DNA of 64,000 nucleotides. It comes from Anaeromyces robustus. Taxonomy: Eukaryota; Neocallimastigomycota; Neocallimastigomycetes; Neocallimastigales; Neocallimastigaceae. This document shows positions 2,451 to 55,141 of the stretch, piece by piece. The stretch covers positions 1 to 64,000 of the forward strand of contig MCFG01000333.1 of the NCBI GenBank assembly GCA_002104895.1. Direction: 5' to 3'. The notes beneath the pieces were generated by a model. The model ran no database searches. It was not told the DNA's origin and saw only the letters and a list, made by a program, of their open reading frames with translations. Position numbers and translations under genes: made by a program. The first letter of the stretch is position 1, and each line of letters begins with the position of its first letter.

Positions 2451-6464
<4,014 letters not shown>

Positions 6465-9772: not shown

Positions 9773-10815
9773 ATTTGAAATTGAGCCTCGTTCTTTTTTT
9801 AATTGTTGGAAAATTCAAAAATAAATTTAATAATAAAAATTTATTTATGAAAAAATAATTAAATCAAAAATATGTATTGACAAAATAACAAATATAAAAA
9901 TCTTATCAATTTTTAAGTGTAAAAAATAATCAATATTTTATGACCCATTTTAAAAAAAAAGTTGTGCGTGAATGTATATATTAATGGAAAAAAGAGAAAA
10001 TTGAAAAAATGGAAAGGACATGAGAAAAATATATGAGTATTTGTAAGAAACGTTAATAATATTAGGTATTTTAAATATATATGATTTATTAATTATTATT
10101 GATATTAATTTTGTAATATATAAGTTAATTATGTTAAAATGTCTTTGTAATGAAGTATATAATTATTATATATGTAAATTTAACAGTAAATCCGTAAAGG
10201 TCATGTATTTTGAATTAATGAGTCGATATTCAATATTTGTAAATATATATGAATATATAATAATATAAATTATGTGATTAAAAAAAAAAAAAGAATATTC
10301 ATTTGATAATAATAAAAGAAAAAAAGAATGTAGAAAAATGATATTTTATAATGAAGTTATTCTAGTTATTAGTAATATATTTTTATTTTATTTTTTTTTA
10401 TTTAATTTATTTATTTATATAGTTATTTTTTTTTACTTAATTTTAATTGTTTCAAATTTTTCATTTATATGGTTTTCTAATTGTAATTTTAGAAAACAAA
10501 AAAGTTTTTTGATAAAAATAAAATTAAAAAATTATAATTTATGATTAAAAAAATTAATAATTTCACTGGTTAAAAATATTAAAAGAATTTGATATAAGGT
10601 CTAATAATAATATTTTGTAACTAATATTTTTTTTTTCTTTTCTGTTTTCTTGTTTATTCTTTTTCTTTTTTTTTTTTTTTCTTTTTTTTTTTTTCTTTTT
10701 TTTCTTTTTTACTTGTATTTTTTATTAAAATATTGTTAAGGGTTATATAAAAGTAGTTCTAATAATTGGAAACAATATAGTAAATATGTAATATTATATA
10801 TCGATATTTTTTTTA
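9773..10815. other. AT-rich intergenic region
   Basis: 3' flank of eS26 and unassigned DNA; contains a T/C-rich tract at 10629-10710. A 68-codon ORF at 10338-10544 has only A/T-rich codons and no recognisable features, so it was not called as a gene. Confidence 0.4.
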
Positions 10816-11007
10816 ATTGGTGGAAGAGAATATGGTTTTAGTGATAGAATTAAACAAACATTCCCATTCCTTTTTGTATGGACAATTGTTAAGTGTCAGA
10901 TTGAATCTGGTAATTCAAAATCCCCATTCTTGTTGCGATCTACGGCTCTATTGAATGATATCCTGCCTATTGTCTGTAAAAGACAAACATATAATATTAT
11001 TCAATAA
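10816..11007 (+). pseudogene. Transposase-like reading-frame fragment
   Basis: An open frame with no proper start, about 63 codons, ends at TAA 11005-11007. It includes FSDRIKQTFPFLFVWTIV, then SGNSKSP, and LLNDILPIVCKRQ. Codon use is richer in G+C than the neighbours, so it looks like genuine former coding sequence. The order FPF...NSKSP...LNDI is reminiscent of the zinc-ribbon-like region of KDZ/Plavaka-type fungal DDE transposases, whose usual cysteines are not evident here; that is a weak, memory-based guess. A poly(A)-tailed retroposon begins a few bases downstream. Confidence 0.4.
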
Positions 11008-11012
11008 ATTTG

Positions 11013-11389
11013 AAAACAACCTCTTATTCAAAGAACATCAATATTGATGACATTAACACACAGTAGGAACAGCCTAACAGGGCCAATGCCCCGATCCTAT
11101 TTATCCTGACCCGAGTGAAATAGGATAGATTAAATTTTTATTTTAATTTCTATAATGTAGTATTAAGGGCTAGTATGGATTTATTGTTTTTAAATATTAT
11201 TATACTACTTTTTTCCCCCTCCAGTATTATTCATTATTATCTATAAATGTTTAACTAGTTTTTTATTTTTATTTAGTATCATTTTTTTTTTTTTTTCATT
11301 ATGTGTTTTTTTTATGATTCATGTATATTAATATTTAAATTCAATAAAGATGATGTACGAATTGTGTGTATGAAAAAAAAAAAAAAAAA
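11013..11389 (+). mobile_element. Poly(A)-tailed retroposon (SINE-like or LINE 3' end), copy A
   Basis: Starts AAAACAACCTCT and contains the family's core words: CAGTAGGAACAGCCTAACAGGGC, AATAGGATAGAT, a spacer ending GTATGGATTTATTGTTTTTAAATATTAT, CCTCCAGTATTATTCATTATTATCTATAA, CATTATGTGTTTTT and TGATTCATGTATATTAATATTTAAATTCAATAAAGATG, followed by 17 A. The AATAAA hexamer about 30 bases before the A-tail points to a Pol II-polyadenylated RNA. It starts at the same point as copy B at 30534, so that point may be the true 5' end of the element. I found no clear target-site duplication, so this is probably an older insertion. Confidence 0.75.
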
Positions 11390-27739: not shown

Positions 27740-28197
27740 ATGAAAGAATACTATAATAATTAATGAGGATATTAATAAAGTTAGAGTTTAACCTGGTATT
27801 GATAGTATAGGTAATGTATTTTTTTTTTTATATTTTTTTTTTTCCATTTATTATTTGATAAATTTGATAATATATATAATAATAATAAGAAATATATTAA
27901 AAAAAAACTTTTACTTTTACTTTTTTTTTTGCTAAGTCATATATTTTTACTTTTATTTATGTTTATGAAAAAATTGCTGTTAATATTAACAAATATAAAT
28001 TAGAAAGTTCTACTATTAACCATTATGAATTATCTCCTGAATTAGAAAATAGATTGAATTATCATATTAATAGTTTAATTCAAAACAATCTTAATGATCT
28101 TATAATAGTAAACATTCGAAGAATAATTTATCCAAACCAAATAAGTTTATTGATCATAGATAAAGTAAAAAATAAAGTATTTAAAAATTTACAATAA
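27740..28197 (+). pseudogene. Decayed gene fragment of unknown family
   Basis: Two stretches have coding character. One, about 27755-27815, reads with IIINEDINKV and PGIDSIG. The other, 27961-28197, reads VYEKIAVNINKYKLESSTIN, then YELSPELENRLNYHINSLIQ and ends at TAA 28195-28197. The reading is interrupted in a few places, so it is not a working gene. A piece of the same sequence lies inverted at 31807-31873 at the junction of the tandem duplication. The end of the frame is loosely reminiscent of the C-terminal helix of bacterial Ger(x)C proteins, but I would not rely on that. Confidence 0.4.
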
Positions 28198-28202
28198 AGC
28201 TT

Positions 28203-28240
<38 letters not shown>

Positions 28241-28438
28241 CTAAACTATTCAATGTTTTTTTTTTTTTTAATTACTTTAATTTTTTTTAAAACAAAAAAC
28301 AAAAAACAAAAACAAAATTAAGTCATTTACAATTCTAATATATGAATCAATTTAAAACAAGCTTAAAAATAGTTTTTTTTTAATAGTTCTATTTTTTTTA
28401 ACAAAAATCATTTTTTAAATTAATAAAAAAAATTAATT

Positions 28439-28481
28439 AAATTTTGGCAGTAAAAAAGATTGATTTTTACCGCCAAAATTT
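28439..28481. repeat. Hairpin upstream of Cys-rich gene 1
   Basis: Arms AAATTTTGGCAGTAAAAA and TTTTTACCGCCAAAATTT with a 7-base loop AGATTGA; one mismatch. The equivalent hairpin in unit 2 (32149-32191) is perfect. Confidence 0.9.
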
Positions 28482-28921
28482 ATTTTTTAATAGTTTTGGT
28501 TAAGTTTTTTTTTTAGAATTTTCTAGAAATGTTAATAAATGTTACAAAAAATTTTTGTATATAAAGAAAGATTTTTTATTCATCATTTTATTCTCCAAAA
28601 AAAAAAAAAAAAAAAACGAATAAATCATTAAATATAGCAATATTAAAAAAATCGAATCCACAAAAAAAAAAAAAGTAAATAAAAATAATAATAAACAAGT
28701 ACAAGAACTAAAATAAATAAAAATAAAAACGAAAATAAAAACGAAAAAAAAATAAAACAAATAATATTATATATATAAAAAATAAAATAAATATAATAAA
28801 TAAAATAAACAATATATACATAACAAAAAATAAATAAAGTAATAATAAAAAAAAAAAAAAAAAAAAGAACAAAAATAAATTAAAATAAAATAAGATATAA
28901 AATAACATATAAAATAACAAA

Positions 28922-29737
28922 ATGAAACTTCAAAATTTATCATTAATATCAATTTTATTTATATGCCTTACAAAAGGTCAAGATATTATACTCTCTACTA
29001 ATTACACCTTATCCTACCTACAAAAGGTTGATATGAATCAAATGAAGTGTACATCCGATAAGGATTGTCCTTTATACTCCACATGTGAAAGTTTTACTTC
29101 AAAAAATAATGAAACCCGTTCTCTATGCAAATTTGGGGATTTCCTATGTCCAGAAAGAGACGTTAGTTTTTTTATGACTGAAAATGTAGATGAAAATTGT
29201 TTCTACGTGAATACTACTATGTATGATTTAGAAAATGAAGAAATAAAAGAAGGCTTCCCAAAAAATATTAAGCCAGTTTTAAAAACTTGTGGTTATTTTG
29301 GTGAAACATATAAATGTAGCACTGAAGAATGTAATAGTAATTCTGATTGTTTATCCGGAATGTGTAAAGACTATAAATGCATGAATAAAGATAATTTGAA
29401 TAATTATATCTATCGATGTTCCGTAGATGATTACGAAAAGTATTCTATGAAGTGTAAAAAGGCCAATGGTATGAAATGTGAAGAAAATATAGAATGCTAT
29501 TCTGGTATATGTTCATGTGGTGATGATAGAAGTATAAAATATCATAGAATAAAATATTGCTCTAATAAAGATTATAGTATTACAAATATATATATATATA
29601 TAGCAATAACAATTGGAGTGTTTGTATTATTTCCAATACTATTTTTTCTTTTTTACTATTTAATTGAAAAAGCAAACACAAACACAAAGACAAACACAAA
29701 AATAGAAACTCATCCTCATCCTCTATATAGAGTTTAA
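28922..29737 (+). CDS. Secreted-type cysteine-rich single-pass membrane protein (271 aa), copy 1
   Basis: Single exon with ATG 28922-28924. Signal peptide MKLQNLSLISILFICLTKGQ, then an extracellular domain with about 20 cysteines in small disulphide-rich units (CTSDKDCPLYSTC, CSTEECNSNSDCLSGMC, CEENIECYSGICSC), several N-glycosylation sequons (NYT, NET, NTT), one membrane helix at about 223-247 and a short Asn-Thr-Lys repeat tail ending HPHPLYRV. The CxxDxxC...SGxC pattern resembles Dickkopf/prokineticin-like or EB-type cysteine modules seen in many gut-fungal surface proteins. Its role could be surface adhesion or sensing; not established. Copy 2 (32658-33503) has an almost identical ectodomain but a strongly different membrane helix. 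Good confidence in topology, low in function. Confidence 0.85.
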   Translation: MKLQNLSLISILFICLTKGQDIILSTNYTLSYLQKVDMNQMKCTSDKDCPLYSTCESFTSKNNETRSLCKFGDFLCPERDVSFFMTENVDENCFYVNTTMYDLENEEIKEGFPKNIKPVLKTCGYFGETYKCSTEECNSNSDCLSGMCKDYKCMNKDNLNNYIYRCSVDDYEKYSMKCKKANGMKCEENIECYSGICSCGDDRSIKYHRIKYCSNKDYSITNIYIYIAITIGVFVLFPILFFLFYYLIEKANTNTKTNTKIETHPHPLYRV

Positions 29738-29830
29738 TTCTATAGGTGGTGGTGAGTGACTATTTTAATTGGCGGAGTGATTTGTCTGGTTAATATTCTG
29801 ATAATGAACGAGACTTTAACCTAGTAAATA

Positions 29831-29860
29831 GTTACACGAAAATTTTTATTCGTGGTTAAC
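29831..29860 (+). other. Hairpin in the 3' flank of Cys-rich gene 1
   Basis: GTTACACGAA-AATTTTTA-TTCGTGGTTAAC can form a stem (CACGAA/TTCGTG) about 95 bases after the stop. It lies in a 3' flank conserved between both gene copies and unusually G-rich for the region, so it is probably a 3' UTR or 3'-end element. Confidence 0.6.
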
Positions 29861-30029
29861 TTCTTTGTTTGGATTAAGTCAAATTTTTTTTTTTAAATAA
29901 ATAATTTACATATATATATATATATTTTAGAAAAAAATATTATATATATTAATAATATTTAATAGTTGTAATTATATTAATAATATTAATATAATTACAT
30001 TATATAATATATCATGTAAAATAATAATA

Positions 30030-30170
30030 AAAACTAAATAATAAATACTAAATAATTAATACTAAATAATAAATACTAAATAATAAATACTAAATAATAA
30101 ATACTAAATAATAAATACTAAATAATAAATACTAAATAATAAATATTAAATAATAATAAATAATATTGTT
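30030..30170. repeat. 14-base tandem repeat (AAATACTAAATAAT)n, long allele
   Basis: About nine to ten units here, against about four in the paralogous site at 33800-33870, so the array has changed length since the duplication. Confidence 0.85.
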
Positions 30171-30533
30171 ATTTTTTTTTATTCTTATTCTTATTCTAAT
30201 TTTTATAATTATAATTATTACTTTTCTTTATATATATAAGATTTATAAATATATTTCTTTTTTATTTTTATTTTCTAATTTTAATATCAAGTAATATATA
30301 TCCATAATAAATAAAAAAACGAAAAAAAAATATTTTGGAAAATATCATATAAAGAATATTAAATTAATAAAAAAAAAAAAAATTGGATTATATTACGTGA
30401 TGAAAATAATGAATTGATTTTTATTAGAAAATAAAAAAATTTTTTTTTTTAATTAGTTTTTCTTTTAGTTACTTATATTGCCTATTTTGTAGTATATATA
30501 TATATATATATTTTTTTTTTTTTTCATTTTCAA

Positions 30534-30880
30534 AAAACCAACCTCTCCAGGAACGTCAATGCTGATAACACTGTAGGACAGCCTAGTAGGGCAAATGCCG
30601 ATTCTATTTCCGACCCTAGTGGAATAGGATAGATCAATTTTACTTTAATTCTATATTTAGAATTAAGGGCTTGTATGGATTTATTGTTTTTAAATATTAT
30701 TGTACTATTTTTTTACCCCTCCAGTATTATTTATTATTATCTATAATATTTTACTGGTTCTTATTTTTTTTAGTATCATTTTTTTTTTCATTATGTGTTT
30801 TTTTATGATTCATGTATTTTAATATTTAAATTCAATAAAGTTGACGTACAAATTGTGTGCCATAAAAAAAAAAAAAAAAA
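30534..30880 (+). mobile_element. Poly(A)-tailed retroposon, copy B, with target-site duplication
   Basis: Begins AAAACCAACCTCTCCAGGAA and ends CAATAAAGTTGACGTACAAA followed by TTGTGTGCCAT and a 17-base A tail. It is flanked by 14-base direct repeats TTTTTCATTTTCAA at 30520-30533 and 30881-30894. The paralogous locus in duplication unit 2 has a single TTTTTCATTTTCAA (34250-34263) and no insert. Same 5' start and same internal words as copy A. About 347 bases with no ORF: a SINE-like or truncated LINE-derived element that used target-primed reverse transcription. Its insertion postdates the tandem duplication unless unit 2 lost it precisely, which is unlikely. Confidence 0.92.
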
Positions 30881-30894
30881 TTTTTCATTTTCAA

Positions 30895-31756
30895 TTTTTT
30901 TTTATTATTATATTAAAAAATAAAATGAATATTAAATTAATTTTTTTTTTTTTTAAAAAAAATACAAATTAAAAAAAAAAAATATAAAGATTAACTTTTT
31001 GTCCTCTAAAAAAATATTTACTTTTTTTCTTTTTTTTTTTCTTTTTTTTTTTTATATAATAAAGTTTGTATATTCATAAAATAACAATGAAATGTCCCAA
31101 GGTAGTCATCATATATATATATATAAAACAACAAAAAATAAAAACAAAAATCTAAAACAAATACAAAAAAACACAAATAATGAACAAAAATAATGTTATA
31201 TATATATATATATATATATAAAAGTGACACAATTGTTTACTTTTAAAAATAATTTAATTCTATTTTTTTTCTTTTTTTTTTTTTTTTTTAAATTTTATTT
31301 GGTATTTATTTAATTTTATATATAAAAGATAGAAATTTAATTATGCATTAACAGGTTTAATAAAAAAAATAATTATTATTTTAAAAAAAAAATTTATATA
31401 TTTTATAATTATGAAAAAATTTTTTATAATTGTTTAATTTATTTTTTTTAATTCTTTTTTTCAAAAAAAGAAATTAAAAAAAGAAAAGATAAAAAAAAAA
31501 AAAAAAAAAGGAAAAATAAATTTATATATATTTAAATGTGACTATTAATATATTATATATATATTTATTATATATATCACATATTAATATTAATATATCT
31601 ATTTTCTTTGCCTTTTTTTTTTGTTTGTTTATATAAATATAATAATACAAGTAGAGATTTTTTTTGTCTTTCTATTTTTTTTTTAAAAAACTTTAAATTT
31701 CTAATTATCTAAAATTTAAAAAAAAAAAAAAAAAAAAAACATATACATTTTTTTTA
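30895..31756. other. Noncoding part of duplication unit 1
   Basis: AT-rich DNA matching 34264-35147. Contains TTTTTGTCCTCT and TGAAATGTCCCAAGGTAGTC, the most GC-rich conserved words of the unit, with no open frame of coding character. Confidence 0.6.
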
Positions 31757-31873
31757 TATATATATTTTTTAATTGCATTTTTTTATATATATATTATTCA
31801 AACCAAATAAATTATTCTTTAAATGTTTACTATTATATTCCTTTATAAGATCATTAAGATTGTTTTGAATTAA
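31757..31873. other. Duplication junction with inverted gene fragment
   Basis: Bases 31807-31873 are the reverse complement of part of the gene fragment at about 28075-28132, with a small length difference. After this the direct copy resumes at AAGTATTTAAAAATTTACAA. The join between units therefore includes a local inversion. Confidence 0.8.
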
Positions 31874-31910
31874 AGTATTTAAAAATTTACAATAAAGTTT
31901 TCTTTCTTTC

Positions 31911-31941
<31 letters not shown>

Positions 31942-32148
31942 CTATTCTATTCATTGTTTTTTTATTTTTTTTAACAAAACAAAAAACAAAAAACAAAAAA
32001 CAAAAAACAAAAAAAAAAAACAAAATTAAGTCATTACCCATTTTAATATATGAATCAATTTAAAACAAGCTTAAAAATAGTTTTTTTTTTTAATAGTTCT
32101 ATTTTTTTTAACAAAAATCATTTTTTAAATTAATGAAAAAAATTAATT

Positions 32149-32191
32149 AAATTTTGGCAGTAAAAAAGATTGATTTTTACTGCCAAAATTT
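32149..32191. repeat. Perfect hairpin upstream of Cys-rich gene 2
   Basis: 18-base arms AAATTTTGGCAGTAAAAA and TTTTTACTGCCAAAATTT with loop AGATTGA, about 470 bases before the start codon. Confidence 0.92.
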
Positions 32192-32657
32192 ATTTTTTAA
32201 TAGTTTTGGTAAATTTTTTTTTAGAATTTTCTAGAAATGTTAATAAATGTTACAAAAAATTTTTGTATATAAAGAAAGATTTTTTATTCATCATTTTATT
32301 CTCCAAAAAAAAAAAGAAAAAATGAATAAATCATTAAATATTTAAAAAAATCGAATCCAAAAAAAAAAGTAAATAAAAATAATAATAAATAAGTACAAGA
32401 ACTTAAATAAATAAAAATAAAAACGAAAATAAAAACGAAAATAAAAACATAATAAAAAAAATAAAACAAATAATATTATATATATAAAAAAAAATAAATA
32501 AATATAAAAAATAAAATAAATAACATAACAAAAAATAAAATAAATAACATAACAAAAAATAAATAAAGTAATAAAAAGAAAAAAAAAAAGAAACAAAAAT
32601 AAACTAAAATAAAATAAGATATAAAATAACATATAAAATAACATATAAAATAACAAA

Positions 32658-33503
32658 ATGAAACTTCAAAATTTATCCTTAATATCAATTTTATTTATAT
32701 GCCTTACAAAAGGCCAAGATATTATACTCCCTACTAATTATACATTATCCTACCTACAAAAGGTTGATATGAATCAAATGAAGTGTACATCCGATAAGGA
32801 TTGTCCTTTATACTCCACATGTGAAAGTTTTACTTCAAATAATAATGAAACCCGTTCTCTATGCAAATTTGGGGATTTTCTATGTCCAGAAAGAGACGTT
32901 AGTTTTTTTATGACTGATAATGTAGATGAAAATTGTTTCTACGTGAATACTACTATGTATGATTTAGAAAATGAAGAAATAAAAGAAGGCTTCCCAAAAA
33001 ATATTAAGCCAGTTTTAAAAACTTGTGGTTATTTTGGTGAAACATATAAATGTAGCACTGAAGAATGTAATAGTAATTCTGATTGTTTATCCGGAATGTG
33101 CAAAGACCATAAATGCATGAATAAAGATAATTTGAATAATTTTATTTATCGATGTTCCGTAGTTGATTACGAAAGGTATTCTATGAAGTGTAAAAAGGCC
33201 AATGGTATGAAATGTGAAGAAAATATAGAATGCTATTCTGGTATATGTTCATGTGGTGATGATAGAAGTATAAAATATCATAGAATAAAATATTGCTCTA
33301 ATAACAATTATGATGTTACAAATATGATTATATATATAGGAATAGTAATTGGAATCCTTTTATTCTCTACAATACCATTTTGGATTCTTTACTGTGAAAT
33401 TATAGTTAGAAACAAAAACGAAAACACAAACACAAATACAAACACAAACACAAACACAAACACAAAAACAGAATTTCATCCTCATCCTCTATATAGATTT
33501 TAA
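32658..33503 (+). CDS. Secreted-type cysteine-rich single-pass membrane protein (281 aa), copy 2
   Basis: Single exon, ATG 32658-32660, same signal peptide (MKLQNLSLISILFICLTKGQ) and cysteine framework as copy 1. Over the first 213 or so residues I count only about seven substitutions (for example S25P, K61N, Y151H, D169V), yet the membrane helix is rewritten: MIIYIGIVIGILLFSTIPFW against IYIYIAITIGVFVLFPILFF. The juxtamembrane tail is longer owing to an expanded Asn-Thr repeat coded by AACACA units, and ends HPHPLYRF. The HPHPLYR end is kept in both, so it may be a sorting or binding motif. The flanking noncoding DNA is also nearly identical to unit 1. Confidence 0.85.
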   Translation: MKLQNLSLISILFICLTKGQDIILPTNYTLSYLQKVDMNQMKCTSDKDCPLYSTCESFTSNNNETRSLCKFGDFLCPERDVSFFMTDNVDENCFYVNTTMYDLENEEIKEGFPKNIKPVLKTCGYFGETYKCSTEECNSNSDCLSGMCKDHKCMNKDNLNNFIYRCSVVDYERYSMKCKKANGMKCEENIECYSGICSCGDDRSIKYHRIKYCSNNNYDVTNMIIYIGIVIGILLFSTIPFWILYCEIIVRNKNENTNTNTNTNTNTNTKTEFHPHPLYRF

Positions 33504-33596
33504 TTCTATAGGTGGTGGTGAGTGACTATTTTAATTGGCGGAGTGATTTGTCTGGTTAATATTCTGATAATGAACGAGACTTTAACCTAGTAAATA

Positions 33597-33626
33597 GTTA
33601 CACGAAAATTTTTATTCGTGGTTAAC
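33597..33626 (+). other. Hairpin in the 3' flank of Cys-rich gene 2
   Basis: Same CACGAA/TTCGTG stem as in the copy-1 flank, at the same distance from the stop. Confidence 0.6.
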
Positions 33627-33799
33627 TTCTTTGTTTGGATTAAGTCAAATTTTTTTTTTTAAATAAATAATTTACACATATATATATATATTTTTTAGAA
33701 AAAAAAAATATATATATTAATAATATTTAATAGTTGTAATTATATTAATAATATTAATATAATTACATTATATAATATATCATGTAAAATAATAATAAA

Positions 33800-33870
33800 A
33801 ACTAAATAAAAAATACTAAATAATAAATACTAAATAATAAATACTAAATAATAAATATTAAATAATAAAT
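33800..33870. repeat. 14-base tandem repeat (AAATACTAAATAAT)n, short allele
   Basis: About four units at the site paralogous to 30030-30170. Confidence 0.85.
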
Positions 33871-34249
33871 AATAAATAATATTGTTATTTTTTTTTTTTC
33901 TTATTCTTATTCTAATTTTTATAATTATAATTATTACTTTTCTTTATATATATAAAATTTATAAATATATTTATCTTTTATTTTTATTTTCTAATTTTTT
34001 TTTATTTTTTTTTTTAATTTTTTATCCATAATAAAAAAAAAAAAACGAAAAAAAAATATTTTGGAAAATAAAGAATGTTTAAAAAAAAAAAAAAAAAACT
34101 ATGAAAAAACTATGGAAAAAAATTGGATAATATTACATGATGAAAATAAAATAATGAATTGATTTTTATTAGAAAATAAAAAAAGTTTTTTTTTATATTA
34201 GTTTTTAATTTAGTTACTTATATTGCCTATTTTGTAGTATATATATATA

Positions 34250-34263
34250 TTTTTCATTTTCAA
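34250..34263. other. Empty target site of the retroposon
   Basis: A single TTTTTCATTTTCAA at the place where unit 1 has the same word on both sides of a retroposon. Confidence 0.9.
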
Positions 34264-35170
34264 TTTTTTTTTAATATTATATTAAAAAATAAAATGAATA
34301 TTAAATTAAATTAATCTTAATTTTTTTTTTTTTTTTTTTTAAAAAAAATACAAATTAAAAAAAAAAAAAAAAAAATAAACTTTTTGTCCTCTAAAAAAAA
34401 TTTACTTTTTTTCTTTTTTTTTTATATAATAAAGTTTGTATATTCATAAAATAACAATGAAATGTCCCAAGGTAGTCATCATATAAATAAAAACAAAAAC
34501 AGAAATCCAAAACAAAAATCCAAAACAAATACAAAAAAACACAAATAATGAACAAAAATAATGTTATATATATATATATATATATAAAAGTGACACATAA
34601 TTGTTTACTTTTTAAAAGTAATTTAATTCTCTTTTTTTTCTTTCTTTTTTTTTTTTTTTTTTCCTTTTTTTTTTTTTTTAAAATTTTATTTGGTATTTAT
34701 TTAATTTTATATATAAAAGATAGAAATTTAATTATGCATTAACAGGTTTTAATAAAAAAAATAATTATTATTTTTAAAAAAAAATTTATATATTTTATAA
34801 TTATGAAAATATTTTTTTATAATTGTTTAATTTTTTTTAATTCTTTTTTTCAAAAAAAGAAATTAAAAAAAGAAAAGATAAAAAAAAAAAAAATAATAGG
34901 AAAAAAAATTTTATATATATATTTAAATGTGACTATTAATATATTTTATATATATTAATATTATATATATCACATATTAATATTAATATATCTATTTTTT
35001 TTTTGCCTTTTTTTTTTGTTTGTTTATATAAATATAATAATACAAGTAGAGATTTTTTTTTTGTTTTTATTTTTTTTTTTTTAAAAAACTTTAAATTTCT
35101 AATTATCTAAAATTTAAAAAAAAAAAAAAACATATACATTTTTTTTTATTTTTCTATATTAATTTTAATT

Positions 35171-36577
35171 TTAATTACACTTGTATTTAATACTACACCA
35201 TTGATCGTTTTCAACACCCCAACGGTCACCATCTTCTTCAGAGAAGACATTACAAGTTTCACAACATGGGTAGAATGAAGCAGACTTACAAGATTCTGGA
35301 TCAACACTGTTAGTAGAACAAGATTCTGGAATACCACACCATTCATCATCTTCAACACCCCATTCATGATCATCAGTGAAGTAAACAGTACAACTCTTGG
35401 TACAACATTTGAATTCTGGTTCAGACCAACAAGTGGAGGAACTTTCACCACCACCAGTGCTACCATTATCTGGGCCTGAGCTACCACCATAAAGACTACC
35501 ATGATATTTGTAGAAATCACCAACTTCAGAATCCTTGAATTTAAGTCCTTTACGGTCAAAGTGATCACCATTATCCCAAAGCATTGGACACATACCTAAA
35601 CTTGTAGCATATTGAGCACAAGTGAATAAGTATTTGTGAACACTGTCCTTATCTTTGTTAGTTAAAACGGTACCATATTCACCAATAATAACTGGAACAC
35701 CATTATCAACAAAACGTTTCTTAAGTTTATCGAAATCAGCAAGAAGGGCATTAACTTCAGCATCAGTACCCCAAGTACCAGCAAATTTACCCCAACTTTC
35801 ATCCTTTTCAAGAATAGTGAAAGTAGATGGAGTGTAATAGTGAACAGAAACCATCATTCTATTGGCAGAATCAGTTGGCATTTTGAAAGCTGAATCGACA
35901 GTTAAGTCAATATCGGTACAATAACCAGCTATAAGTAAATGTCTGGATTTGTTGTTACCACCAGATTTACGTACAATATCAACAAATTGTTGGTTAATGT
36001 TATTTAAAGTAGAGTAAGCCTTGTTTTTATCACCAGAGTTACTATAACGATTCCAAACATCGTTCCAACAACCTTCTTCATTTAATGATTCGAAAATTAA
36101 ATGTTCACCATAGTTTTTGAAATAGTCGGCAACTTGAGTCCAAATTTTATTGAATTTATTATTAGCCATAGTAGATTCACTAGTACCGAATTTTTCAATC
36201 CAACCTCCATCGTAGTGAATGTTAATAATAGCATACATGTTACTATCAATAACCCAACTAACAACTTCATTAACTCTTTTTAATAATTCTGAACTAATAG
36301 TGTAATCAGAACTCATAAGATTACTCCAGGCAACTGGAATACGAATACTATTGAAACCAGAATTTTTAATTGCAGTAATTAATTGTTTTGTTGCTGCTGG
36401 ATTACCCCAAGCAGTTTCAAATTGATTAACTGTACTACCATTTATCCAATCACCAAAAGCTTCTAAAGTATTACCTAAATTCCAACCGAGACCCATTTCA
36501 TTAACAACTTCTTGAGAAGTTAAAGCTAAAGCTGAACTAGCAGCTGCTAAAGTAAGTAAAATATTTTTTAATTGCAT
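35171..36577 (-). CDS. GH5 (subfamily 4-like) endoglucanase with two C-terminal fungal dockerins (468 aa)
   Basis: Single exon. Signal peptide about 1-18 (MQLKNILLTLAAASSALA). The GH5 domain spans about 20-362 and has the family's conserved residues: R79 (SIRIPVAW), H121 (IHYDGG), the acid/base Glu in SLNEEG (N166-E167), H246 in VHYY, the nucleophile E300 in IIGEYG, and W334. Residues 364-382 are a Gly/Ser linker. Two cysteine-rich fungal dockerins follow: CWSEPEFKCC...WGVEDDEWCG (383-420) and CKSASFYPCC...WGVENDQWCS (430-467). The sequence pattern matches the secreted CelB-type endo-1,4-glucanases of anaerobic fungi, which cut cellulose or mixed-linked and xyloglucan backbones and dock to cellulosome scaffoldins. 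No intron, in contrast to housekeeping genes here. Its 3' flank is part of the duplicated block. Confidence 0.95.
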   Translation of the reverse strand: MQLKNILLTLAAASSALALTSQEVVNEMGLGWNLGNTLEAFGDWINGSTVNQFETAWGNPAATKQLITAIKNSGFNSIRIPVAWSNLMSSDYTISSELLKRVNEVVSWVIDSNMYAIINIHYDGGWIEKFGTSESTMANNKFNKIWTQVADYFKNYGEHLIFESLNEEGCWNDVWNRYSNSGDKNKAYSTLNNINQQFVDIVRKSGGNNKSRHLLIAGYCTDIDLTVDSAFKMPTDSANRMMVSVHYYTPSTFTILEKDESWGKFAGTWGTDAEVNALLADFDKLKKRFVDNGVPVIIGEYGTVLTNKDKDSVHKYLFTCAQYATSLGMCPMLWDNGDHFDRKGLKFKDSEVGDFYKYHGSLYGGSSGPDNGSTGGGESSSTCWSEPEFKCCTKSCTVYFTDDHEWGVEDDEWCGIPESCSTNSVDPESCKSASFYPCCETCNVFSEEDGDRWGVENDQWCSIKYKCN

Positions 36578-38489
36578 TTTTTTTTTTTTATATATTTTTT
36601 TTAAATTACAAAATTAAAATGAAAAATTGTCCAATTTTTATTTATTTTTTTTATTTTTATTTTGAATGTCTATATATAATTTGATTTTTTTATCAAATTT
36701 TTTATAATGAATGAATATATATATATTAAATATTAAATAATTATATATAAAAAAACAATTCTTTTTTTATTATTTTTCTATAATTATTATAAAGATGATC
36801 TTTTTCTTATAATAAAAAATATAAAAAAAAAAAAATCAATAATTATAATTATTATAATTTAAAAAAAAAAAAGATTTTTTTTTATTTTAGAAAAATCATG
36901 GTTATTTTATATACTTTACAAATTGTATTTTAATTTTTTAATTTTTATTATTTATTAAAGTTTTTAAATGATATTCAATTTTTTTTTCTATTCTATGATA
37001 TAATGAGAAATTTATAGTTAAATTAATTGTGTAAATAATTTAAATTATTTAATTGATAGAATAAATAAATTATATTGCATTATATTATATTATTATATTA
37101 TAATATATTAATATTAATATTATTATTATTGTAAAAAAAAAAATTTAGTTTATTATGAAATTAATTTAAAAATTTAATTATTTATTGTTTAATTTCTATT
37201 TTTAATTTTTATTTTTGTTTCTTATGTTTTTATTATTATTATTATTATTATTAATTTATATTATTTTACATTATATACTTAAATAATAAATAATAAATAC
37301 TTAAAAGAATGAATAATGAATAAAATCGTTTAATAATAGAAAAGTTAATTAAAAAAAATTAAAAAATAATGGAAATTAAATATATATAAAACATTATTAA
37401 TATAGGAAAAATAATATTCATTGTAAAAAAAAAATAATCAATACAATGATAACAATTAATGTGAATTTTATTTCATATTAAACGTATCATATTAAGCATT
37501 ATTCCAAAAAAAATTTTACTTTCAAACTATAATCATTAATAAATAAATATTAATAAATAAATAAAAAATAATAATAAATAAATAAATAAATAAATATAAA
37601 GTAAAAAATAAAAATTATGAACTCCTCCTCTTTTAATAAATTTAATTATGTCATAATATAATATTAATCCTATTAGTATTTAGCATTGTTGTTATACTAC
37701 AAGAAAAGAAAGAAAAAAAAAATTATCCTTGGATAATTTTTAATTTATTTATTTAAATATTATTTTATATTATTAAATAAATATTATTAAATATTAAAAT
37801 ATTAAATATTATTATTCTAATATAAATTAATAAATAATAAATTACTAAATTAATAAATGATTAAATGATTAAACATTTTAAAATGAGATTTTCATTAATG
37901 ATTAACATTTACAATAGGATTGAAAGTAAAAAAAAAATTTTTATTATTTATATTATATATTAAAATTATCCATATGAAAAAAAAAAAGTATTTTTTTTAT
38001 AGTTTACTTATTTTGTTTTTTATTTATTTTATTTTATTATTATTTTGATTCAAACTTTAATACATTACATAATGCTAATACATTAATATAATGATATCCA
38101 TGTACCGTTATAATAAACTTTAATTTATAATATTTTAAAGAAAAATTAATATATTTATAAATTAAATATTAAAGTTAAATTAATAAAATAAGTTGAATAA
38201 AATCAATAATAAGATTAAAATGAACATATGTAACATTTTTATATATATTTTTAATATTTTTTTAATATTATATAATATTATAAAAAATGAATATAAATTA
38301 ATTATTTATTAAATTTTTTTAATGAAATAAACTTAAAATTATAATAAACTATAATTATTATATTATCTATTTTTTTATTTTAAGAGTTGTTGTGATTTTT
38401 TTATTAAATAAGGTTTGATATAAAATATTACTCTGAAATATTAAAAATCAAAATCTTATAATTAAATTATAGGAATAAAAAATAAAATA

Positions 38490-39475: not shown

Positions 39476-39712
39476 CTTTTTATCGCACAATTTATATATC
39501 ACTTTATTGAATTTAAATATTAATATACATGGATTATAAAAAAACACATAATAAAAAAAAATAATATTAAAAAAAAATACAAAAAATAACATTATAAATA
39601 ATAATGAATAATACTGGAGGAAAAAAAAGTAGTATAATAAAAATTCATACTACCTTAATTCTACATATAGAATTAAAGTAAAAATTGATCTATCCTATTC
39701 CACTTGGGTCAA
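39476..39712 (-). mobile_element. Poly(A)-tailed retroposon, copy C, 5'-truncated
   Basis: On the minus strand it starts within the head at GACCCAAGTGGAATAGGATA, passes through TTTAATTCTATATGTAGAATTAA and CCTCCAGTATTATTCATTAT, and ends with TTCAATAAAGTGATATATAA and a short interrupted A tail. It is more diverged than copies A and B and lacks the first approximately 100 bases of the head. Confidence 0.8.
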
Positions 39713-53192: not shown

Positions 53193-53618
53193 ATATTAAA
53201 TAAAATTAAATAAATAAATAAATAAGTAAATAAATTTTTTTAATTAAATTAAATTATATTAAATTAAATTAAAATTATAAGTTATAATTAAAAATAAAAA
53301 TACAAAAAAAATAGTATGATTTTTTTTTTTTTTTTTTTAGATGCTATCAATAATATAAACATATGAATATATTTCATAAACTTAACATATGAAAAGATTA
53401 AATAAATAACAATAAATAATAATAAATAATAATAATTTATAAAAAAAATTTTTTATAATTATTTTTTATTTATATAAATTATTAAATAATTAATTTTAAT
53501 GAATGAATGAATGAATGAATAAATAAGTTTTATTATTTATTTATTTATTTAAATAAAATGATAATAATAAAATAATAAAATAATAAAATAGATTATTTAT
53601 AAATTATTATATAATTAA

Positions 53619-53650
<32 letters not shown>

Positions 53651-54800
53651 AAATAATTAATAATAAATTAATAATTAATTAATTAATTAAAAAAATTTCC
53701 TTTTTTATTTTTTGTATTAAAAAATATATAAATAAAAAAAAGAGAAAAAAAGAAATTTCAAAAAAAGTAAACTTATTTTATTTATAAAATTTTATAATAA
53801 CAACAATAATTACATTTGTTATTATTTTTTTTATATAATTTTTTTTGTTATTTATTGTAAATTTTACTATAAAATGAAAAAATTGACATTTATTTATTAA
53901 TTGTAAATTTAAAATAGATAAACAAAGTTATTATTATTATTTTTATAATTATTAAAAATAGTTTATATAGAATATAATAATTACAAATTACCAAAATATA
54001 ATGTTATAATTAACAACTAAATCAAAAATAATAATTTTTTTTATAATTTGATATATTTGTATTTAATAATAAAATAAAATAAAATAAAATATTATTATTA
54101 TATTCTAGTATTTTATTTTATTTTCATATGAAAATATATTCTTACAGTCTTATTGTTAATGAAAATAATATTCTTACAGTCATATTGTTAAAATAAAAAA
54201 AAAAGTTTAATATTAAAAATTTTTTTATTTTCTTCTTTATTTTATTTATTTATTTTATTTATTTATTTATTTATATTTGATATTTACATTATAAATGAAT
54301 AAAGTTTTTTTGCTATGATCTATAATTTTTTAATATACTTTATAAAAAAAAATTTTTTTTATTAAGTATATTCGATTTTTTTTTAGATTAAAGGAAGAGA
54401 ATACATTTTCATGATAAATATATTTGATTTGATTTATTCTATTTTTTTTAATACTTATTTATATAGAACCCTTTAATATATATATACATATATATACATA
54501 TACTTATTTATTATTATTTTTATATCAAAAAGTATTGTTTTTTTATTATTATTATTATTTCTTATTTTTATTAAATTTATATATATATATTTTTCTTTAA
54601 ATATCAACAATACTGTTAAAATAAAAAAGTATTATTTACAAGTTTTTTTTTCTTTTGTAGTTGAATTATTACTTTTAAATTGAAGTAGTTGTTAAGTTAA
54701 TATTCTAACTTTTTTTCCTTAATGATGTTGAATTTCTATTAATTTTAATAATAATGTTATATATATAATTTTAAAAATGCTTTTATATATTTAATTTTAT
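50866..54800. other. Large AT-rich intergenic region
   Basis: Contains a 57-base tandem repeat (51218-51331), runs of TAAAA and TAAA, ATTACAATAT-type short repeats near 53045-53080, a TAAA array at 53146-53192 and a two-copy word ATATTCTTACAGTC(T/A)TATTGTTAA at about 54137 and 54168. No gene recognised. Confidence 0.5.
51218..51331. repeat. Two tandem 57-base units
   Basis: AATTTTAAAATCTATTATTA then (A/T)AGCATTCTTCTAA(T/C)TTAAAT repeated head to tail with three differences. Confidence 0.88.
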
Positions 54801-55037
54801 AATATAGTATGGATTTATTTGTTTTTTTTTTTTTACATATATTATTATGCTACTTTTTTTTTCCTTCCAGTATTTAATTCATTATTATTTATAATGTTTA
54901 AACTGATTATTTTTTTATTTTTTTTTATTATCATTTTTTTTTATTATGTGTTTTTTTTTTATGATTCATGTATATTAATATTTAAATTCAATAAAAGATG
55001 ATATACGAATTGTGTGCTATTGTGCTTTAAAAAAAAA
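54801..55037 (+). mobile_element. Retroposon, copy D, 3' part in plus orientation
   Basis: Starts at TAGTATGGATTTATTTG, contains CCTTCCAGTATTTAATTCAT and TTATGTGTTTTTTTTTTATG, and ends TTCAATAAAAGATGATATAC ... TTGTGCTTT and nine A. Matches the last 230 bases of copies A and B. Confidence 0.82.
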
Positions 55038-55052
55038 TGCAATATAAAATTT

Positions 55053-55141
55053 TAAGTAAAAATTGATCTATCCTAATTTCACCTTGGGTCGGTAATAGAA
55101 TCGGCATTTGCCCTACTAGGCTTGTCCTACTGTGTATTATT
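55053..55141 (-). mobile_element. Retroposon, copy E, 5' part in minus orientation
   Basis: On the minus strand reads CACAGTAGGACAAGCCTAGT, AGGGCAAATGCCGATTCTAT, TACCGACCCAAGGTGAAATT and AGGATAGATCAATTTTTACT, the head of the same family. It lies immediately after the A tail of copy D but inverted. Confidence 0.82.

Follow-up and report, generated by a model that had tools for sequence, protein, structure and literature searches.

A 5′-truncated LINE copy and its empty counterpart site in a tandem duplication of the anaerobic fungus Anaeromyces robustus

The 64,000-nucleotide stretch of Anaeromyces robustus DNA analysed here (contig MCFG01000333.1, positions 1 to 64,000, referred to as the window) holds two tandem copies of one segment, of which the first (unit 1) carries a short A-tailed insert and the second (unit 2) does not. 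This arrangement raises the questions of what kind of element the insert is, how it reached the site, and whether it arrived before or after the duplication of the segment. An initial annotation, made from the letters of the window, had described a discrete 347-base retroposon between 14-base repeats, with a preserved empty site in unit 2. Direct reading and a script agree on the A-tailed 347-base insert and its two repeats in unit 1, and on a single copy of the repeated word, with no insert, in unit 2 (Table 1). The description as a discrete retroposon is replaced here by that of the truncated 3′ end of a LINE of about 5.1 kb.

Table 1. Coordinates of the duplicated units, the insertion site and other LINE-derived sequences in the window.
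Feature	Position	Strand	Support or remark
Tandem duplication unit 1 (filled site)	28170..31782	+	window self-comparison; alignment to unit 2
Tandem duplication unit 2 (empty site)	31868..35172	+	self-comparison; alignment to unit 1
Left target-site duplication copy, TTTTTCATTTTCAA	30520..30533	+	abuts element; direct reading, script
Truncated LINE: last 32 ORF codons, stop, 3′UTR with AATAAA	30534..30863	+	96.7% to positions 4751-5077 of the 5077-base L049 reference copy
A tail, 17 bases	30864..30880	+	direct reading
Right target-site duplication copy, TTTTTCATTTTCAA	30881..30894	+	abuts element; direct reading, script
Empty site, word TTTTTCATTTTCAA once in unit 2	34250..34263	+	direct reading, script
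Unit 1 gene, 271 aa from Met, no Pfam family over cut-off	28922..29737	+	translation, Pfam
Unit 2 gene, 281 aa, 88% identical to unit 1 product	32658..33503	+	translation, pairwise identity
LINE family fragment	10808-11368	+	79-87% to reference (range for the four fragments)
LINE family fragment	39486-39710	-	79-87% to reference (range for the four fragments)
LINE family fragment	54807-55020	+	79-87% to reference (range for the four fragments); faces 55041-55135
LINE family fragment	55041-55135	-	79-87% to reference (range for the four fragments); faces 54807-55020

BLAST comparison of the window with itself pairs positions 28170-30530 with 31868-34278 at 86.9% and 30880-31782 with 34249-35172 at 87.4%. 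With the insert excluded, the units are colinear and show 184 mismatches in 3139 aligned bases (5.9%), together with numerous short indels (35 gap runs, 279 gap columns), and the mismatches are unevenly distributed, ranging from 3 to 30 per 300 columns. At the site itself unit 1 has a surplus of 361 bases, made up of the 347-base element and a repeat of the 14-base word TTTTTCATTTTCAA. On the + strand of the window this word is found at three positions (from 30520, 30881 and 34250; direct reading and script). Removal of the insert and one repeat from unit 1 allows it to align straight through the unit 2 site, and this alignment revealed no scar of a precise loss from unit 2, a trace named beforehand as evidence against a true empty site. 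The nearest differences between the units are, upstream, the lengths of a T-run and a TA-run, with 14 T before the C in unit 1 versus 5 in unit 2, and, downstream, a single A/T difference. In this AT-rich window a repeat of at least 14 bases abutted two random points 150-600 bases apart in 166 of 200,000 draws (0.08%), the chance repeats presumably lying mostly within the window's tandem repeats.

It is most improbable that the empty and filled pair was created by the assembly. The genome is in 769 contigs, which may tend to break at LINEs, as inferred from the strand counts given below; the site, however, lies well within its contig (C261, 79,570 bases), the units differ all along their length, and both junctions carry the target repeat. 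Apart from the two units, the site region gave no further genome match above 80% over more than 150 bases among the best 40 of 404 candidates. For the product of the duplicated gene, a genome search with all 39 candidates scored returned one other copy at 88%, the remainder reaching at most 54%. This Cys-rich protein, for which neither copy of the gene yields a Pfam family over the cut-off, looks by eye to be secreted or membrane-bound, and its other relatives in the genome are 29-54% identical. A neighbouring gene (35171-36613) codes for a cellulase of family GH5 that carries two CBM_10 domains, which fits an anaerobic fungus.

The nature of the insert was revealed by its relatives elsewhere in the genome. 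A search with the 347 bases gave at least 48 matches from the best 40 of 813 candidates, many of them at 96-97% identity, and at all seven other loci examined longer copies continue upstream of the insert's first base as one common sequence. Long ORFs are present in the extended loci, and a reverse transcriptase domain was found in three that were translated. The insert (30534-30880) consists of 330 bases of LINE sequence and 17 A: its head encodes the end of the LINE ORF (...KTNLSRNVNADNTVGQPSRANADPISDPSGIG stop in L049), followed by the 3′UTR with AATAAA shortly before the A tail, and it retains about 6% of the full-length LINE. Its RNA folds better than shuffled sequences (z -3.75, 0 of 100 as good). 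An Rfam scan of 30000-31400 gave nothing relevant (best E 0.15, below gathering), and ARAGORN found no tRNA anywhere in the window.

These observations leave very little probability for a SINE-like element, in which the 347 bases would replicate separately and borrow the LINE tail. Such an element would be short and A-tailed, as the insert is, and most of the best matches do span bases 1-347; this span, however, arises because longer copies contain it and run on colinearly upstream. A start at the insert's first base is confined to the window copy itself among 39 copies compared, and the head of the insert is the end of the LINE ORF rather than a tRNA-, 5S- or 7SL-like sequence, with no support for one from Rfam or ARAGORN. 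The expectation that genome copies would share both a 5′ end and an A tail therefore holds for the tail, which is common, whereas the starts are scattered, and the 5′ end that copies have in common is situated about 4.8 kb upstream of the 347-base unit.

The parent element is represented by the reference copy L049, which comprises 5077 bases plus A45 between copies of AAAAGCGACATC, the leading A run of the right-hand copy merging with the tail. Its ORF of 1415 aa from the first Met contains an endonuclease/exonuclease/phosphatase domain (PF03372, residues 192-399, 38.4 bits against a cut-off of 24.5) and a reverse transcriptase domain (PF00078, residues 726-981, 124.4 bits against a cut-off of 29.6), and by sequence its nearest solved structures are LINE-1 ORF2 proteins, matched in the reverse transcriptase region with E about 1e-28. 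Six copies with the 5′ end kept (L040, L048, L051, L052, L057 and L058) extend 35 bases beyond L049, which is without these 5′-terminal bases, and share the start CCTCTTCTGAGG, giving a full length of about 5.1 kb (5080 to 5134 in L052, L057 and L058). No long terminal repeats were seen by eye at the ends of the copies. Most long matches in the fetched loci, which were picked as best hits, are 98.3-99.6% identical to L049, a second group of copies lies near 96-97%, and L041, L049 and L058 each have an open ORF within the range of 1409-1420 aa (stop to stop). Since the long matches are near-identical and ORFs are open, the family has been active in the recent past, and it may perhaps still be moving.

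The 5′ end of the LINE has features of its own. In L052 (2668-2717) an 11-base inverted repeat forms a stable predicted hairpin (CCTCTTCTGAG...CTCAGAAGAGG; fold z-score -2.9, 1 of 200 shuffles as good), which is followed by a second hairpin. An Rfam search with the 5′ end of one copy gave no match at the gathering score. An HDV-like ribozyme was considered and rejected: that class has a P1 of 7 bp, for which the stem is too long, and no such Rfam match was obtained. The 50-base 5′ end also occurs two to three times in a row in several contigs (C278:72203/72330/72457, C305:65678/65805 and C237:28035/28282, as well as C527, C363, C120, C473, C500 and C48), with spacings of 127 to 247 bases, of which 127 and 247 are the commonest, as if the 5′UTR held tandem monomers.

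Genome-wide counts place the window insert in the company of many incomplete copies. The 3′-terminal 30 bases of the LINE occur at 416 places and the 5′-terminal 50 bases at 101 (at most 3 mismatches in each case; reversed-pattern control for the former and control for the latter both 0), rough counts given that the stringencies differ and that some copies hold the 5′ word more than once, which suggests that the majority of copies are without the 5′ end. The loci contain 69 distinct matches. Of these, 39 were kept and 30 dropped, the criteria being a 5′ junction that falls within the locus, at least 90% identity, sufficient flank, and removal of duplicates; the first 30 exact matches in contig order are L009-L038, and some other loci were chosen as best hits, favouring long and young copies. 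Five of the 39 begin at reference base 1, four of which extend to the true start. The other 34 start away from the reference start, at 33 different positions (BLAST match ends, accurate to a few bases), although two of these are not truncations: L007 (4953) is an internal-deletion junction and L048 (976) is the right part of an interrupted copy. The start at 4751 belongs to the window copy only, its nearest neighbours being 4691 and 4791.

Flanking repeats of at least 10 informative bases are present in 13 of the 39 copies, whereas 200 control re-pairings of the flanks gave 0.18 on average and never more than 2. By the same strict test 24 copies are without a flanking repeat of at least 7 informative bases; some of these belong to arrays (nested or tail-to-head) to which the test is not applicable, and others, such as L002 and L029, simply have no repeat. 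Allowing one mismatch gave 16 repeats, reduced to 15 by removing an array period: the apparent target repeat of L004 at reference 4832 proved to be the period of a tandem array and was taken out by hand. In five of these 15 (L009, L017, L018, L034 and L052) repeat and element share a microhomology of 4-8 bases at the 5′ junction, a feature with no counterpart in the window copy. Repeats of 11-13 bases, read by eye, also flank the 5′-end-keeping copies L040, L052, L057 and L058. At the locus L048 a truncated copy (reference 3122-5077 plus A32) is nested within a longer member of its own family, close to reference position 980, and has TTCTTCAACA and TTCTTTCAACA at its sides. The reference copy supplies the uninterrupted sequence, so that this nested insertion gives a second known pre-insertion site for the family.

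Taken with an A tail at one end, repeats of variable length and 5′ truncation, the window insert can be assigned with high confidence to the 5′-truncated copies of a young APE-type LINE family placed by target-primed reverse transcription. Because of this anatomy we infer nicking, target priming and an early stop of reverse transcription. Briefly, the LINE endonuclease would nick one target strand, and the reverse transcriptase would prime at the nick and, starting from the 3′ end, copy the polyadenylated mRNA of the LINE. Copying would halt after about 330 bases, installing the last 32 codons and the 3′UTR, while a cut in the second strand 14 bases away, followed by repair, would duplicate those 14 bases. 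The initial annotation had regarded movement by this route as proved; the anatomy fits and no rival fits as well, which makes target-primed reverse transcription the best reading of the insert rather than a demonstrated event. No clear L1-like TTTT/AA nick motif is visible in the 15 sites. Upstream T is only weakly enriched in them, with T at -1 partly forced by the method and A at -1 not scorable because it merges with the A tail. At the window site the primer strand as read would end in A, not T, and pairing to the A tail is not evident.

The insertion probably followed the tandem duplication, a conclusion held with good confidence mainly because the unit 2 site is empty. If the units evolve alike, each should have diverged by about 3%, half of the 5.9% between them, and an insert as old as the duplication would be expected to carry about 10 changes. 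The window insert and its nearest copies are separated by 7 changes in about 328 bases, and 5 of the insert's changes are private among 40 other copies (1.5-2.1%); 7 and 10 are not significantly different, so that the counts lean toward an insert younger than the duplication while being too weak to decide. An older insert that was then precisely lost from unit 2 is very unlikely. Recombination between the 14-base repeats could in principle recreate the empty site, and the scar-free state of unit 2 is also what such repeat-mediated loss would leave; two events are required, however, and the changes in the insert (5 private, 7 to the nearest copy) fall below the roughly 10 expected, though not significantly.

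The main rival to insertion after the duplication is insertion first on one allele, with the duplication then arising by unequal exchange with an empty allele, or with unit 2 converted later by the empty allele. It predicts an identical sequence picture. The insert must then have been polymorphic when the duplication arose, and the substitution counts tend to favour a younger insert, so that this course of events is considered unlikely, if less so than precise loss. The dating of the insertion after the duplication, as first put forward, consequently survives as the simplest reading toward which the counts lean, and not as a proof, since unequal exchange gives an equal picture. The uneven divergence along the units makes conversion between them possible as well.

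The insert resembles 5′-truncated insertions of human L1 in its A tail, in flanking repeats of about 10-18 bases and in scattered 5′ truncation, and the two elements also share an APE endonuclease with a reverse transcriptase and, at some 5′ junctions, microhomology or extra bases. L1 follows a two-ORF plan and prefers to nick at TTTT/AA, whereas the L049 LINE shows one long ORF and its 15 sites have no clear motif of this kind; likeness to L1 ORF2p is confined to residues 637-949 (pairwise solved-structure search). For human L1, repeats of about 15 bp and such types of 5′ junction are described in one report (PMC2912911). LINEs of the Tad1 clade are likewise fungal, and in a second report they are recorded in the chytrid Synchytrium endobioticum (PMC6572847).

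Among proteins, the nearest relatives covering at least 86% of the query are the unnamed P0001-P0012 at 48-55% identity (sources ena, jgi and lgn; best 120 of 200 matches listed; 7992 candidates scored). More distant are P0027, a gene model named Orpsp1_1, whose host is on that ground taken as Orpinomyces and which has both domains at 44% over 55% of the query, and four Batrachochytrium salamandrivorans proteins (P0049, P0050, P0052 and P0056) with PF00078 at 25-26% identity. Stretches 85-97% identical to the LINE ORF also occur in the A. robustus gene models P0035, P0047, P0063 and P0066 (named beta-glucosidase, C2H2 protein and others), which probably run into LINE copies.

Among the open-licence papers searched, none describes LINEs of Anaeromyces in its title or abstract opening. 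On that ground the family counts as new but of a known type, and truncated LINEs with target-site duplications are textbook material; with the short-retroposon reading corrected to a truncated LINE, the locus represents otherwise ordinary LINE biology. Its value lies in a clean natural before/after pair for the insertion of a LINE. The fungal phylum concerned, Neocallimastigomycota, has LINEs that seem to be little described in the papers searched, and inserts of this kind would help to tell strains apart, provided that the family is active. A broader proposal, advanced tentatively and rated less likely than not, is that of an undescribed LINE family of anaerobic fungi, active recently and perhaps still. 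Its single ORF would be a fused one, its 5′ terminal hairpin would recur in tandem in part of the copies, and new copies would habitually insert into the A tails of older ones, which would produce head-to-tail arrays; the window insert might still be polymorphic between strains.

Several further observations concern other copies of the LINE. The window holds four more fragments of the family (Table 1), which are probably older because of their lower identity. Head-to-tail arrays, in which a truncated copy lies directly behind the A tail of another, were seen in L044 (C734, about 197800-199200), L056 (C117, about 53400-54040), L026 and L043. The first bases of the array copies in L044 and L056 all but coincide (reference 4832/4833). 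Insertion into A tails and the copying of read-through transcripts would each explain such arrays. The reverse complement of L040 (8121-8651) contains a 531-base miniature in which the LINE 5′ end is joined to the last 125 bases, with an A32 tail and flanking TTAATTTTTTTAA. Splicing was discarded as the origin of this internal deletion, as the junction read by eye shows a short shared word instead of GT-AG, and template switching or deletion is likelier. By strand, 251 LINE 3′ ends lie on - versus 165 on +, and 65 5′ ends on + versus 36 on -, and right-hand contig ends breaking inside LINEs would yield both skews.
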